From: Diaporthe sp. PMI_573 | Taxonomy: Eukaryota > Ascomycota > Sordariomycetes > Diaporthales > Diaporthaceae | Assembly (NCBI GenBank): GCA_021399435.1 | Contig: JAJTUP010000004.1 | Coordinates: forward strand, 1,674,001 to 1,738,000 | Reading direction: 5' to 3' | DNA length: 64,000 bases | Shown: in pieces, positions 26,865 to 42,925 of the stretch | Layout of the letters: every line of letters begins with the position of its first letter | Position numbering within the stretch: position 1 is the stretch's first letter | Notes under the pieces: generated by a model | Told to the model about the DNA's origin: nothing | The model's input: only the letters and a program-made list of their open reading frames with translations | Databases searched by the model: none | Translations under genes and position numbers: made by a program

Positions 26865-29800
26865 ATGCCCGACAACATGGACTCGGCACCGACTCCAGCA
26901 GCTCGGGCGGAAGCCTACTGGCAGTACGTCATACTCTTTCCTGTGTTTTTTGAAGGCGCCCCAGGGCGATTCGCACCATTTTCGCCCTGACATGCCGAGT
27001 CTGGTCCCAACCATGGCTGTGCCACAAGCGTACGCTCCCACGCTCGAATATGCTAACAAAAGCGCGAATATCCAGAGAAGCCAAGAAAATCCGACACAGG
27101 ATCATCCGTGATATCGAGCAGTTGAAGAAGGGGCCCAGCGGCAAGACTGAAGAAGAGCAGTTGAAATCGCTGGAAGAGAACATGGCCCAGTATGTCAGAC
27201 CGCTATTGGCACGTCGACAAAAGATGTCACACGCAGAGAATAGCCGGGCATACCGACCCTGCGCACAGTTTGCGCAAGAGAGCATTGGACGAAGTTGTAC
27301 GCCCACGAGATGCTGGGCCTGTCCATGGGGTAGCCTTCTACAAGCGAGTGCTGTTTGGTCACGCTTGACCGTGGGAAAACTGGATTTGCGTGTGGCATCT
27401 GTTGTTGATATTGTCGTGTTGACTGTTACAATAATTCCTGACACAGTCTTAGATTTCGGCTGCGCTTCGTCTGCACCCTTGCCGAGGACCCCAAGTACAT
27501 CTACCAGTTGGAGGCAGAGGACGTGATGTGGGGGCTTCACATATACATTAACAAGGCCTACCGAGATCTGTTCAACGAGCGCCTTCGAGGCCAACCAAAC
27601 GTCGTGAGCAAGCGCAAGGTGGAGAAGCTTTACAATAACTACCTGAAGACCGCCCACGACTTCTACAAGATCTACTTCCAACGCCTTCAAGCGCTGCATG
27701 GCATGCCGCAGATTCCCAGGATAAACAGTGTTCTCCAACTGCAAGCCCCGGATATCGACGAGCGCCAGGGCCATATTGTGACTGTGGAAGCCGCCCAGAA
27801 GTCGTTCCACTCAACCCTGCTTCATCTCGGTGATTTATCTCGCTGGAGACACAAAGCTCGACCGAAGCCAGATGGCTCGAAGATGGCTCTGCTCTACTAT
27901 GCTCTCGCGCACGACCTAAAGCCAAACTCTGGAGATGCTCACCACCAGATGGGAATGATTTACACGGAAGAGCACAACCATTTGCTCGTTGTCTACCACC
28001 TCTATCGCTCCCTAGCGATTGAGCTTCCTCACGGAAACTCGACGAAAAATCTGGAGATCGAGTTCAAGCAGATTCTGCAGTCCTCCACGCCCACCAGGCG
28101 AACAGGCACCCCAGACCCCAACGAGGCCTTCTCCAACTGGTTCGTGAGGCTTCATGCTCACTTCTACAAGGGCGAACCGTTTTCTCAACAGTCCGAGCTG
28201 GAAGAGACCGTGCTCCACCGCCTCGAGGCAATGTTGAAAAAGCCAGACACTCTACCTGTTGTGTTGAAGATGGTGCTTATCAACATTGCAGCCTATTACG
28301 TCGCACGATCTAGAGTCGAGAGTAAGAGCCTTTTTTCACTTATATTTCCTTTGCCCTTCTGGTTCCCTGCTCTTTCGGCCTTTCGTCCATCCTTGGCACG
28401 CTCTGTGACCTATTTCAATGCTAACTAGTCTTCAGAGAAATGGAGTCTAGGTGCTTCCAACTCATGCCAATTTGTGTTAGGGATGAACGTCAGGTGGATT
28501 GTAACACTATCTCGCCTCCTTCAATCGGAGCTCCAAGAGTTCTCAAAAGCTGCAGCTCCTGCAAAAGACACCGGCGATACCAAGGACGGCGAATCGCCCA
28601 AGGGAACTGAGAAGTTCAGCCCATTCACGGAGAACCTCCTACCGCTGATGCGTATCTACATGGCCTGGCTATACATCTACCGAGCAGACATTGTGAAGTA
28701 CCAAGAGCACCTAGGGGGTCATGTTTTTGACATGTACAGGATCCTTGCCCAAGCCCTGACTACCATCACAAAAGAGTTCAACGGCCAACAAATGGTAGCA
28801 TCGCCATACCTCCTTCCTGAGGATGTCATGGCGTTGGGTATGAAGCCATTTAACGACCCTGACATGGCTTCCGTCTGCCGACTCCATCTTGCATTCGGCA
28901 AAGACGCGTTCAAGCCGCATTGGGAGGATACCGGGCTTCCCAGGAATGAACCTGATGTGGAGATGAGGGCTCGTGTCTATGATCTGATGAATTGTGGATT
29001 CTCTCTTGCTCTTGACGATACGTTCCCGCTGGCTGCGAATCCACCTGCAGAGGGCTCGGATGGGATCATAATCTCCTACGTCGAAGGAGGTAAACCGGCA
29101 CAAAGTGCTCAGCAAGAGCCCGTCAGATCCCAGCCTATACCCTCCGATTCTCAGATTGATCAGCTTGAAGGACAGCTTCGCAACCTTCGTCCAGCAAGCA
29201 GGACTGGTCTTACTGGCCTGGATGGAGTGCAGACGGTTGGCAACCTCGGCCGCGAGCACACCAGAGTACCATCTGGCTCAGCTGCGATTGAAGGAAGTCC
29301 CGAACCCCCGACGCATGACATCGGCCCCTTGGACACTGAATCAGATCTGAATATCGATGCGAAGATGCATAACATGGTGGATGACCTCCTTGATGATGAT
29401 GGCTCGGACCTGATGGGTGCTCGCCCGGGGCGAGGCCCCCCTCAGCCCAAGACGTCATCATACGGCATGCACTCTTCGACAGCTGAGCAAGTTTTCGGTA
29501 GGCTACAGACGCCTGGTCACAACTCTGGTGTAGGTTTTGGAAAGGCGAATCCTTGGGGCTCGTTTGTGACCCCTCCACAGACAGGTCCGGGGCACGGTGA
29601 ACCGGCCGGTCTTCAATACGAGGCAGCACACTTCAACACTGGCTCCCCAAGTCAGACACAGAGAGCTTCAAGCACGTCCTCGTTGCAACCGACCGTCCCA
29701 GAGTTCACTCCCGGTCCTGGTATTCAACGAGGCTCGGACCCTTTTGCTTTGTTTCCTCCAAGCAACACTCAAGCGCCCGGTAGCCAGTTTGGCCAAACAA

Positions 29801-38908: not shown

Positions 38909-40086
38909 CTACCGCCGGTTCTCCCAGCTACCCAGCCACCTCGAGCTCTCGGCCACCTTGGCGACCTCGCCCAGAGCTGCCTCCACCTTGCCCTCCGGGT
39001 CGTGGTACCTGCTCCCGTCGAACTCGACGAGGAACAGGTACTGGAAGGGCTGGATCAGGCTGGGCAGGCTGTTGATGCTCGTCAGGTTCAGCCCGACCTT
39101 CCTGAACACGTCCAGCACGGCGGCCAGCGCGCCGGGGGACCGGTGCGGCACCGTGAACGAGACGAGGCTCTTGTGAGCCCCGGCCTGTGCCTGTGCCAGT
39201 GTCTCTGCTACCGCTACCTCTACCGCCCCCCCTCCTCCTCGCCCTTCCCCGCCCGCAGCATCCCCCCTCCCGCGCCGCAGGACAAAGAACCGCGTCGTGT
39301 TGTCGTCGCGGTCCTCGATGCACCGCGCCAGCACGTCGAGCCCGAACGCGGCCGCCGCGCTCTCGTTGGAGATGGCGGCCGTCTCGCCCGTCTCGTCCAG
39401 CCCTGCCATCTCGGCCGCCTTGCTGGTCGAGCTGACGTCGATGGTCTCGGCGTCGGGCAGGTGCGCCGACAGGAAGGCCTGCGTCTGCCCGAAGGCCTGC
39501 GGGTGGCTGTACACGCGGCGCACGTGCGAGAGGTCGTGCTGCGGCTGGCCCTGCTGCTGCTGCTGGTGAGGAGCATCCTCCGTCGTCGTCTTCCCCCGCG
39601 CACGGCCGAGCAGGAAGTGGTGCACGTCGATGTACACCTCGCCGCACACGCTCAGGTCCGCGTAGTCGCCCCCGCGGTCGGCCAGGTAGCCCAGCGTGAA
39701 TGTGACGACGCCGTGGGTCGAGTTCTCAAAGGGCACGACGCCGTAGTCTGCGTCCCCGGCCGCCACGGCGTTGAAGACGTCCTTGATCGTCGCCACGGGG
39801 TTGAGGATGTGGTCATCTTCTGAGAAGGCTGACTTGGTTGCCTTTTTGGGTGGGCGGGCGAGAATGAGGCCGGCGGTGTTAGCTGCTCTGCATTTGTCTT
39901 ATTTATATATTGCTTGGGAGGCACCGAGGGGTGTGTGAGCGGGTAGGGGAGGACGGGTGGAGGCAAATGGGACTATCTAGCGAGGACTCTTACCTGGTGT
40001 GTGAAGGAGGACGGAGGACCTAAGAAGGCGACTAGCGGCTTCGTCGAGGATGTTTCGCCCTCCCTTTGGTGCGTGATCTGAACCAT
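38909..40086 (-). CDS. PHA2: Prephenate dehydratase
   Basis: Two exons (39994-40086 and 38909-39841) with a 152-nt intron join to 341 residues. The enzyme converts prephenate to phenylpyruvate in phenylalanine synthesis. Exon 1 carries the conserved opening FLGPPSSFTHQ; the acceptor after AAAAAG restores SAFSEDDHILNPVATIKDVF. The catalytic-domain motif YGVVPFENSTHG and the VYIDVHHFLLGR segment follow, then VRRVYSHPQAFGQTQAFL, SSTSKAAEMA and AAISNESAAAAFGL. TRFFVL closes the catalytic domain. The C-terminal ACT domain (SLVSFTVPHRSPGALAAVLDVF; NLTSINSLPS) would bind phenylalanine for feedback control. Two low-complexity inserts are unusual: a Gln-rich one after HFLLGR and a Gly/Ala-rich one of about 30 residues before the ACT domain. 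GC at third positions is extreme, which creates long antisense open frames. Confidence 0.95.
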
Positions 40087-40904
40087 GTCTGCTTTGCCTA
40101 TTGAGTCTTGGTTATACGTTGAAAGGCCCAGCTCGGTGAGAAGGCGGGCACGAATCCGAGCAAGCGAAAAATTTCTTGAAGCGCTGGGATCGTCGGCGTG
40201 ATCCGTTTTACATGATCACAAAATGGTTGAAAAGAACCAAGTACTCAATTGAGGCTCACAAAATGTGCGGGGTTGCCTGTCATTCTTGGGATGCACGAAG
40301 GACTTTATGGACACAAGTCTCTCCATTTTGCCTGAGGTCGAGCTAGGATCCGTACTGGTGGTGCGCAGATGCGGGATGCGGGTGCGGCTTAAACGGGCAC
40401 CAACCCGTCTCCAGCACAGAGCGACGCAAAGTCACCATCCCGGAACATTGTCGGCATTGAAGATGGAGTCCGCAGTGAACGCCATGCGGTTGGCCGGTTA
40501 ATTCGCACGACTGCTATCAAGTCACCCAATGCATCAAATCGGCACAGAGCCCGTCAGTTATTCCCGCATGAGTGGCAGCGGACGCTGTTGTAGGACGTGG
40601 CACAAATGCTTGAAAGAGCGTATCAAGTTGGATTTTGTGTAGCACTACCAATTGAAAAGAGCGACTCAAAGCAAGGAGCAAGAGGGACTACAGCTTCATG
40701 CCCTCCGATTGGACGACTTATTGTCTTGCTTTGGACATTCCCCGACGATAGAGCAGTAATCAGGTCTACGCCCATACCAATATCAGTCTCCCTTGACTCC
40801 ATCCTTCCCCGTCTGCCCCGTCTCTGGTAGCCCTGCAACGAAGGCGTTTTCTGGACTCTTCAACTTCTCGGCGCACAGGACACCATAGGTAAACGGTTCT
40901 AACG
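40087..40904. other. Intergenic between prephenate dehydratase and eRF1
   Basis: 818 bases between the PHA2 start and the proposed 3'UTR intron of eRF1, both genes on minus. It should contain the PHA2 promoter and the last part of the eRF1 3'UTR. No gene is supported. Confidence 0.55.
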
Positions 40905-40967
40905 CTATGTCTCAGCAACTGGTGGGGTTACGGGCTGGGCTCGGAGCATGGAGGATTCAAAACGTAC
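40905..40967 (-). other. Putative 3'UTR intron of eRF1
   Basis: On the minus strand a GTACGT donor at 40967 and a GACATAG acceptor ending at 40905 bound 63 nt, with a TTGCTGAGA possible branch site about 15 bases from the end. Exonic distance from the normal eRF1 stop to the donor is 247 nt; from the stop of the in-frame extension it is 28 nt. Inferred from splice signals only. Confidence 0.5.
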
Positions 40968-40995
40968 CACCGTGTTTCTCTAACTCAAGAAGCCC

Positions 40996-41214
40996 TCATG
41001 TCGTCATGACAGAGCGGAGCGGTGACGGCCGCACGGCCTGGTGAGGCGACTGGCCGGGGGTGTCACCGAAGCCCTTCATCAAGCGCCGCTGCGCAGGCGA
41101 GACTTTGCCGGACGCCGTCTTGGGCGCCGGCTTCTGAGGATCGGCAGCCGTCGTTGGCTCGGACGGGATTGCTTGAGTTGAAGAGCCCTCGTTATTCACG
41201 AGGGATTCAAACTG
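40996..41214 (-). other. In-frame 72-codon readthrough extension of eRF1
   Basis: Directly after the eRF1 UGA (next base C) the same frame stays open for 72 codons to a second UGA. Codons end mostly in G or C, like the gene itself, and the product is Ser/Pro/Thr/Ala-rich with an ordered-looking SPAQRRLMKGFGDTPGQS stretch. It is either a functional C-terminal extension, a regulatory decoy, or chance. An alternative is a spliced isoform using the TTGACAG at the stop as an acceptor, for which I see no convincing donor. Confidence 0.6.
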
Positions 41215-42925
41215 TCAATCGTCGTAGTAGTCATCGTCGTCGTCGTCGATATCTTGCAACTGTTCAAAGTTGACCTTGTAACGCAGGAGGCCACCGATTC
41301 CACCGAAGCCCTTGACGAACTGGTTGCCCTCGGTCGATCGGTCAGACACAAACTCCAGGGTCGTGCCAAAGTCCTTGTAGTGCTCCGCAATCCACTCGAG
41401 GAAAGACTCCTGGTTCACGACTTCCATCTCCTGGCCCGCAGAGGGCGCGGACTTGTCCAAGAACATGGAGCGGTCGCCCGAGGTCTCCTGCTGCTTGGTG
41501 GTGTGGACGAGGTACTCGGCCCCCTCGCTGTTCTTGAGGGTCCAACGGGTGATCTCCAGGTTCTCGAAGACGATCAAGATCTCGACAGCTCCGAGCTCCA
41601 GCGCCTTGAGCGTGTCCTCGATACCGTAGCAGACCCGGCCGGTGTCCTGGCTGATCTCCTCGAAGTATTTCCCGATCAGCTTCTTCTCCTGGATGAACTT
41701 GACGTTGCCAAGAGTCTCGGAGGCCAGCTCGATAGCCTGGTTGAAGCCGTTCTCACCACCGTAAGACACGTCGACGACCTTGATGACCTTGGAGGCGAGA
41801 CGGTTGTCGAACATGTCGGATGCGTTCAGGTCGTTCTTGAAATCGGCGGAACCGGCGAGGATGATTCCGGCGACGTTGACCTTGTCGTTGGTGATGAAAT
41901 TCTGGACCGCCAGCTCTGCGACCTTGCGGACGTAGTTGTGACGCTTCTCCTCTCGCAGACGGGCGAAACGGAGGGCGGACTGACCACCACGACCGTGCTT
42001 CTTGGGCAAGTCGACCGAGAACTTGTGGACGATCTCTCGAGTGTTGCCGCTGAGGGTTCCGAAGAGAGCACCGTTACCGTCCATGATGATGAAGCCGAAC
42101 TTCTGGTCGGACTCGAGGAGCTCTGCAAGGGCCTCGGTGTGGAACTTGTTGTCACAGAGGTAGAGCGAAGTGTTGATGGGCTTGAAGGGCTCGAAATCGA
42201 TGTTGACCTTGCGTTCCTTTCCCTCGGAGGTCAAGATTTCACCACAGTAGACGACCAGGCCATTGGGAGGAACCTTGTTGTACAGCTTGAGTCGCTGCTG
42301 GGTGGAGGTGATGGCGGACAGGACAGACTGCCGGTTAACACGGGACTTGATGTTGGACGCCGTGCCCTGTTGGTGGTGTCAGCGTGCATGGCTTTGAGAG
42401 GCGAGGCGTTTGCCATGCGGACAATACGTACGTATTCTTCAGCCAACATCTTTGCAGCACGAGAGACCTGATCCTTGGGGGCTGGTGGGAGGTCAGTCAG
42501 CCGTGCTGATACCCGGCGCGTCTCGACAAGGGGCGGCACAGGGGGCGTCACGTACGGATGATGAGGGAGATCATGGATGTGCCGTTACCACGAGCGGCCT
42601 CGAGCCTCTTGATGAGCTTCTTGACCTTCCATATCTCGATCTGGAGACTTTAGTCAGCCTGGATGCGCAGCACAAAAACACACGCGCACGAGCCGGGCCT
42701 TGCAAGCGTGCATTGGCGGGCGGTTGGGAGGGGTGGACCAACGTTCTTCTCGGCTTCCTACAAGAGTCGTATATTAGCGAGTGCATCGGAACACCAGAAG
42801 GCGCCATGTCCAGAGAGCAGTGGCCACGAGACAGCACTTGTTGGCTAAAAACGCGAGGCATTGGCTGGGAGAGGGAATTAAGAGCGGGTGCAGCATCAAC
42901 ATACGTTAGCCTGTGCGTCACTCAT
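41215..42925 (-). CDS. SUP45: Eukaryotic translation termination factor eRF1
   Basis: Five exons: 42905-42925, 42743-42757 (a 15-nt micro-exon), 42556-42640, 42432-42481 and 41215-42366, encoding 440 residues. eRF1 reads all three stop codons in the ribosomal A site and triggers peptide release with eRF3. Key motifs are intact: TASNIKS (NIKS at 62-65) and YLCDNKF (126-132) for stop recognition, and [11 protein letters not shown] with GGQ at 184-186 for hydrolysis. The tail is the usual acidic run ending DDYYDD. The first exon gives MSDAQAN, the micro-exon EAEKN, and the third [11 protein letters not shown], rebuilding the conserved N-terminus. The stop is UGA-C, the weakest tetranucleotide context. 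The same frame continues 72 codons, and a possible 3'UTR intron follows; see the separate entries. A long antisense frame covers it and is a coding shadow. Confidence 0.98.
42743..42757 (-). other. 15-nt internal micro-exon of eRF1
   Basis: It is flanked by a CTTGTAG acceptor and a GTTGGT donor and encodes EAEKN. Skipping it keeps frame and deletes five residues next to the first helix. Confidence 0.85.

Follow-up and report, generated by a model that had tools for sequence, protein, structure and literature searches.

The eRF1 gene of Diaporthe sp. PMI_573 is best explained as a further member of the known family of eRF1 readthrough/NMD autoregulatory loops, a reading to which we give a probability of about two in three. 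If correct, it extends a published termination feedback loop to another fungal genus, with a UGA-CAG stop context. The least expected result was a conserved peptide tail encoded behind the eRF1 stop codon. All coordinates refer to the analysed stretch of 64,000 nt (the window), which is part of an 83.7 Mb genome assembly.

Anatomy of the eRF1 3' end

The gene was identified as eRF1 by its Pfam domains and its homologues. Its last exon starts at 42366, directly after intron 4 (42431-42367, minus strand), and the last-exon frame is 99% identical to eRF1 of Diaporthe helianthi and 98% identical to the D. amygdali and D. citri counterparts. The database proteins of these three species have the same end point as the frame described here (...YYDD). 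The D. helianthi annotation (P0004) is without the residues EAEKN, which are coded here by a short second exon; a small exon was probably missed in that gene model. The following features were read at the 3' end of the gene.

41218..42378, minus strand: eRF1 open frame with the last coding exon, covering part of domain 1 and domains 2 and 3 (Pfam eRF1_1, eRF1_2, eRF1_3)
41215-41217, minus strand: first stop, UGA, followed by CAG UUU GAA and preceded by TAC TAC GAC GAT (...YYDD), from the sequence
40999..41214, minus strand: in-frame extension of 72 codons, with the blocks ESLVxNEG and AQRRL and an RPSPLRSMMTA-like end (here RPSPLRSVMTT)
40996-40998, minus strand: second stop, UGA, followed by GGG, from the sequence

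The initial annotation had described a UGA-C stop with a frame that stays open for 72 codons to the UGA at 40996-40998, and this was verified in the sequence. Its positions and distances for a 63-nt intron, starting 247 nt past the first stop and 28 nt past the second, were likewise all correct.

The length of the extension was dropped as evidence, as an open run of this size arises by chance in 7-39% of cases. Among Markov sequences simulated with a given dinucleotide make-up (5,000 for each), runs of at least 72 codons were found in 7.2% with the local composition (tail plus 500 nt), in 9.5% with that of the whole strand and in 39% with that of the extension itself. The encoded peptide is far beyond chance. 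When a profile of 15 other fungal eRF1 tails, picked by eye from eRF1 relatives and excluding Diaporthe, was run against all 1,900 ORFs (stop to stop) in the window, the extension frame alone matched (E 6.7e-22; next ORF 0.95). Codon use in the extension was coding-like: it scored +0.19 bits/codon, against -0.19 and -0.01 for the two remaining frames of the same strand, and +0.19 was equalled in 1 of 2,000 shuffles. One antisense frame over the extension also scored +0.16 bits/codon, and the yardstick was built from only 11 long ORFs of the window, including a probably spurious one opposite another gene.

Searches for known domains or structures in the tail gave no match. No Pfam family was found on the extension at E up to 1, no solved structure was found with the tail profile at E up to 10, and a region-limited search with the extended protein yielded 16 candidates, all with E above 1. 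Within the genome, the extension peptide had one match and a further weak one at E 0.52. Related fungal DNA was absent from the viral collection, and the prokaryote collection held one archaeal locus, of no use here. A predicted structure of the extended eRF1 (mean pLDDT 45, from 24 sequences) was uninformative and was set aside.

Because of the tail profile match and the conservation of its peptide, described below, the post-stop frame has almost certainly been selected as protein. That the whole arrangement is an accident, a chance open frame with chance splice signals, is hardly credible: neither the frame length nor the intron pattern is significant alone, but the peptide match at the E value given above stands against it. 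A chance origin is already refuted for the extension and is possible for the intron.

Conservation of the tail in other fungi

The initial annotation had proposed a check on related fungi. This was run at the protein level, and the extension was found to be kept in other species, both by the profile match and by direct comparison. Of the best 120 eRF1 relatives listed, 24 had a tail of at least 35 residues. Queried with the Diaporthe tail on its own, 14 of these 24 outscored each of the 1,200 shuffled tails (weakest of the 14, E 0.0035; top shuffle, 0.07), and a PSPLR-like motif was present in 15 of the 24. The best match was that of Cytospora P0033 (E 2e-17; 60% identity), from a genus that we take to belong to the same order as Diaporthe. 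The ten long tails that did not rise above the shuffles were P0016, P0025, P0032, P0039 (Drepanopeziza, presumably a Leotiomycete), P0051, P0053, P0069 (Agyrium), P0082, P0114 (Emergomyces) and P0116. When a wider profile was run on these ten, only P0039 scored above shuffles (E 0.0015), and the other nine again did not.

With an E cut-off of 10, a tail-only profile search of the protein database returned 16 small proteins, nine of which scored 1.5e-3 or better. In these 16 the tail forms a separate ORF or stands behind other sequence. Among the database proteins, P0127 is 57-58% identical to the Diaporthe tail. P0135 reads ...DDW QFDNL...RPSPLRSMMTAT W..., with W at both stop positions, and was apparently translated with UGA as tryptophan. 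If so, its letters would imply UGA-CAR-UUY-GAY and a second UGA in another fungus, the same context as in Diaporthe.

Two database entries carry names that probably do not suit them. P0123, a Hypoxylon texense protein named prephenate dehydratase, is in fact an eRF1 tail. In our window, eRF1 is followed downstream by a gene (38909-39898, minus strand) that looks like prephenate dehydratase; the neighbourhood may be shared with H. texense, and the name of P0123 may be a gene-model mix-up. P0128, filed under Candidatus Bathyarchaeota archaeon, resembles a fungal eRF1 tail (E 1.7e-6) and probably stems from a contaminated archaeal bin.

Conservation was not spread evenly along the tail. In an alignment of 32 members, the last 12 positions (61-72) averaged 3.5 bits versus 2.1 at positions 1-60, in an alignment that was not anchored on the motif and in which some of positions 1-60 rest on few letters. 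The P, S, P, L and R of PSPLR were each present in 31 of the 32 members, and the protein ended five or six residues past PLR in 28. The four exceptions were P0027 and P0131, which read on, P0033, where the annotation differs at this place, and P0135, with its W at the stop. A near-constant tail end, PSPLRSMMTA(T), adjoins the second stop. Fifteen members had been selected visually and 16 through a profile that itself contains the motif, a choice that would miss motif-less members, and the 32 are not independent (eight are Xylariales-like and five Sporothrix-like). With these cautions about sampling, constraint is tightest right next to the second stop, and the spacing to that stop hardly varies.

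That the tail, and in particular its final 10-11 residues, has stayed so constant suggests that the peptide itself does something. A loop that works purely as a distance switch, merely moving the stop, neither needs nor predicts a conserved peptide, and a mere spacer needs none. The tail homology strongly supports the extension that the initial annotation built its loop reading on; the conserved peptide had been missed there. No report of a conserved fungal eRF1 tail was found in the literature or by the letters of the peptide, in a search confined largely to open-access papers, and we know of no report of a conserved eRF1 tail in plants. If the tail is constant because its peptide has a function, the loop model is incomplete, and a central translation factor has a conserved C-terminal form in many fungi. 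Current gene models would then end before this conserved form of eRF1 or seem to splice into it.

Routes past the first stop

The first stop of Diaporthe eRF1 lies inside one continuous exon. None of the 12 GT donors upstream of the UGACAG acceptor fits GTRNGT; those in frame are GTGTCT, GTCAAG and GTCAAC, and GTTTGT and GTTCGT occur at frame-shifting lengths. GTRNGT is not an absolute criterion, as the donor of eRF1 intron 2, GTTGGT, fails it as well. An exitron in Diaporthe eRF1 was rejected for lack of a good donor. Reinitiation is disfavoured because no in-frame ATG precedes the first conserved tail block. Because the stop lies in a continuous exon and no upstream donor fits GTRNGT, readthrough is the simplest and most likely route to the Diaporthe tail.

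Other ascomycete eRF1 proteins (P0007, P0010, P0014, P0015, P0018, P0055 and others) continue past YYDG or FYDG into intron-like sequence, and several end in D at the stop. This pattern suggests that such ascomycetes have a common phase-1 intron within the last eRF1 codon, which would be absent in Diaporthe.

The long form could also be made by alternative splicing, the stop being removed through a tandem acceptor behind the last-codon intron or through an intron inside the exon. The gene models of the 15 profile tails (NCBI records) would have to bypass any stop at this place, and several proteins run into a seeming intron after YYDG. Moreover, Cytospora P0033 joins RYK directly to FDSLV, and Diaporthe has an in-frame donor there (GTCAAC, 63 nt). 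These models of relatives may, however, be gene-finder artefacts that avoid a stop, and the uninterrupted Diaporthe exon and the mismatch of all listed upstream donors to GTRNGT tell against splicing, which we judge to be decidedly unlikely. With its stop in a continuous exon, where alternative splicing is unlikely, Diaporthe offers a natural case in which to separate readthrough from splicing.

It is also conceivable, and in our view very improbable, that the tail is a relic, functional in an ancestor and unused in Diaporthe after loss of the last-codon intron, with UGA-CAG left in place. The stop context may differ from that in Hypocreales, where the letters permit, without requiring, UGA-CUA-G. 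Against a relic stand the intact frame, the coding-like codons and the presence of every conserved block; Cytospora P0033 and P0127 are also about 60% identical to the tail, and UGA-CAR would recur in P0135. An attempt to deduce UGA-CUA-G for Fusarium and Ophiocordyceps from proteins read in a different frame was abandoned, as these letters are allowed and not forced and TAA and CTT fit too. For P0032, the other-frame comparison agreed at 34 of 67 positions versus a maximum of 32 in 300 shuffles.

For readthrough as the preferred route, the context UGA-CAG-UUU resembles known signals in part. CAGUUU fits five of the six letters of CARYYA, the sixth being U and not A, so that the type I motif is incomplete, and it fits five of the six letters of the yeast form CARNBA. 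The type II motif (UGA-CUA/CGG) is absent, as the stop is followed by CAG. Excerpts of PMC3542737 and PMC4132726 describe CARYYA as able to stimulate readthrough at UGA too, and in the mammalian reporter described in excerpts of the latter all six letters mattered. The likeness to type I and type II signals consists of UGA-C, the five CARYYA letters and a possible downstream hairpin, and the difference lies in the sixth letter and in the lack of CUA or CGG.

41186..41204, minus strand: possible RNA hairpin with a 7-bp stem (CCCUCGU/ACGAGGG) and a loop of 5 nt, its start lying 10 nt past the UGA, from folding z scores

This hairpin was sought after the fact, and its score fades with a larger folding window, from a z of -4.6 at 47 nt to -2.8 at 70 nt and -1.1 at 100 nt, where 32 of 200 shuffles fold equally well. 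A stem of at least 6 bp starting 5-16 nt after TGA was found at 43 of the 1,989 such triplets in the window (2.2%), and folding as good as that of the hairpin was seen in 2.2% of 3,763 segments of 36 nt. Preferred fungal codons for SLVxNEG (here SLVNNEG) could produce the stem by themselves. According to excerpts of PMC3542737, type II signals mostly have a 3' stem-loop, which begins about 8 nt downstream; in the work excerpted from PMC4132726, little readthrough was seen for two structured candidates. We regard the hairpin as a hint of a possible readthrough element.

The 3'UTR intron and the proposed loop

The remaining part of a readthrough/NMD loop is an intron behind the stop, for which one candidate was found.

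40905..40967, minus strand: candidate 3'UTR intron of 63 nt, GTACGT...CTGAG...ACATAG, from a pattern scan with a lenient branch site only

Its donor is the same as those of eRF1 introns 3 and 4 (GTACGT; intron 1 has GTATGT and intron 2 GTTGGT), and an alternative acceptor lies at 40899. The candidate branch site, CTGAG, is one step off the CTGAC and CTAAT (CTRAY) read in other eRF1 introns, and the candidate is lost once CTRAY is demanded. Of 586 equally long tiles of the window, 11% held a candidate of the form GTRNGT...CTRAN...YAG, as did 14% of 2,000 shuffles, in a scan of limited sensitivity that recovers two of the four eRF1 introns. The donor and the distances favour the 3'UTR intron that had been put forward, and the weak branch site and the 11-14% chance rate leave it a candidate. 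We consider it probably real, a judgement that rests partly on the published Neurospora crassa case.

Factors for NMD and the EJC are encoded in the genome. A search for the Mago, UPF3, UPF1 and UPF2 families found all four. The initial annotation had also placed an SMG7/EST1-like factor in the window, and the domain search bore this out.

27886-28329 and 28408-28857, plus strand: EST1/SMG7-like gene, Pfam EST1_DNA_bind (best E 6.3e-39)

In N. crassa, NMD elicited by spliced 3'UTR introns depends on EJC factors, as stated in excerpts of PMC10578600.

In the loop as we propose it for Diaporthe, a minority of ribosomes would read through the putatively leaky UGA-CAG and add the conserved 72-residue tail. 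Most ribosomes would end at the first UGA, far upstream of the splice junction of the candidate 3'UTR intron, and the EJC left there would lead to NMD. After readthrough, termination would take place at the second UGA, only 28 nt short of the junction; the ribosome would overlap the EJC position there, and by the usual EJC rule the mRNA would be spared. Abundant eRF1 would thus mean little readthrough and more decay, and scarce eRF1 more readthrough and a stable mRNA. The probability given at the outset reflects, on one side, the exact anatomy, the homologous tail, the P0135 context, the Mago and UPF families and the published N. crassa and plant loops. Counted against it were the off-consensus branch site, the incomplete fit to either readthrough motif and the conserved peptide, which the loop does not require.

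An eRF1 readthrough/NMD circuit in plants was reportedly described by Nyiko et al. in 2017. The initial annotation gives CUA as the plant post-stop sequence (UGA-CUA); in Diaporthe it is CAG (UGA-CAG). In the plant loop, as summarised in excerpts of PMC11062462, high eRF1 disfavours readthrough and promotes NMD, and low eRF1 favours readthrough and spares the mRNA. Excerpts of PMC9293766 state that no ribosome footprints were seen on the Arabidopsis eRF1-1 extension despite readthrough shown earlier.

For the N. crassa loop, the abstract of the study describing it is said to propose similar circuits in many fungi. This study of eRF1 readthrough/NMD autoregulation (Kurilla et al. 2020, FEBS Lett 594:3504) is cited in the excerpts seen of PMC10578600 and PMC9809470. 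To judge from its title, the likeness to Diaporthe lies in a filamentous ascomycete, in eRF1 and in readthrough combined with 3'UTR intron-mediated NMD; for Diaporthe, both the readthrough and the NMD are predicted. The earlier interpretation stands in part: the extension is real and kept in relatives, but a fungal version of the loop is not new, having been published for N. crassa.

Alternatively, Diaporthe might make a conserved, functional C-terminal isoform of eRF1 by readthrough, with no 3'UTR intron/NMD switch in operation. Selection would then keep the peptide, for example, because it binds a partner, affects how the long form is turned over or makes ribosomes pause at the second stop. 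The peak of amino-acid conservation at the C-terminus, measured in the 32 members partly chosen by likeness, agrees with such an isoform, as does the candidate status of the intron. On the other hand, the published N. crassa case has, by its title, both a 3'UTR intron and NMD, and the Diaporthe candidate lies at fitting distances from both stops. We hold an isoform of this kind to be rather unlikely and retain the autoregulatory loop.

Within the loop, a role for the peptide may be sketched by analogy. According to excerpts of PMC13025110, the AMD1 readthrough tail blocks eRF1 and thereby stalls ribosomes that have reached the second stop. The fungal gene resembles AMD1 in layout, with predicted readthrough, a conserved in-frame tail and a second stop against which the conservation is concentrated; no sequence similarity is claimed. 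Stalling was shown for the AMD1 tail, whereas for the fungal eRF1 tail it is a possibility that only the conservation pattern suggests. We tentatively raise the idea, doubtful as it is, that selection has long maintained the eRF1 tail as a peptide, and not as a spacer, in Sordariomycetes and in at least one Leotiomycete, and that its last 10-11 residues slow release at the second stop, holding the ribosome over the exon-junction site. There would then be two points that respond to the amount of eRF1, the leaky stop and the second one. Other uses of the tail, such as binding of a partner or turnover of the long form, fit equally.

A minor observation concerns the EST1_DNA_bind domain, which had 16 matches in the genome. 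Fourteen of these lie elsewhere than in the window gene (E 3e-10 to 7e-6), and nine of the 14 occur in frames 544-576 aa long, which looks like an amplified EST1-like family.
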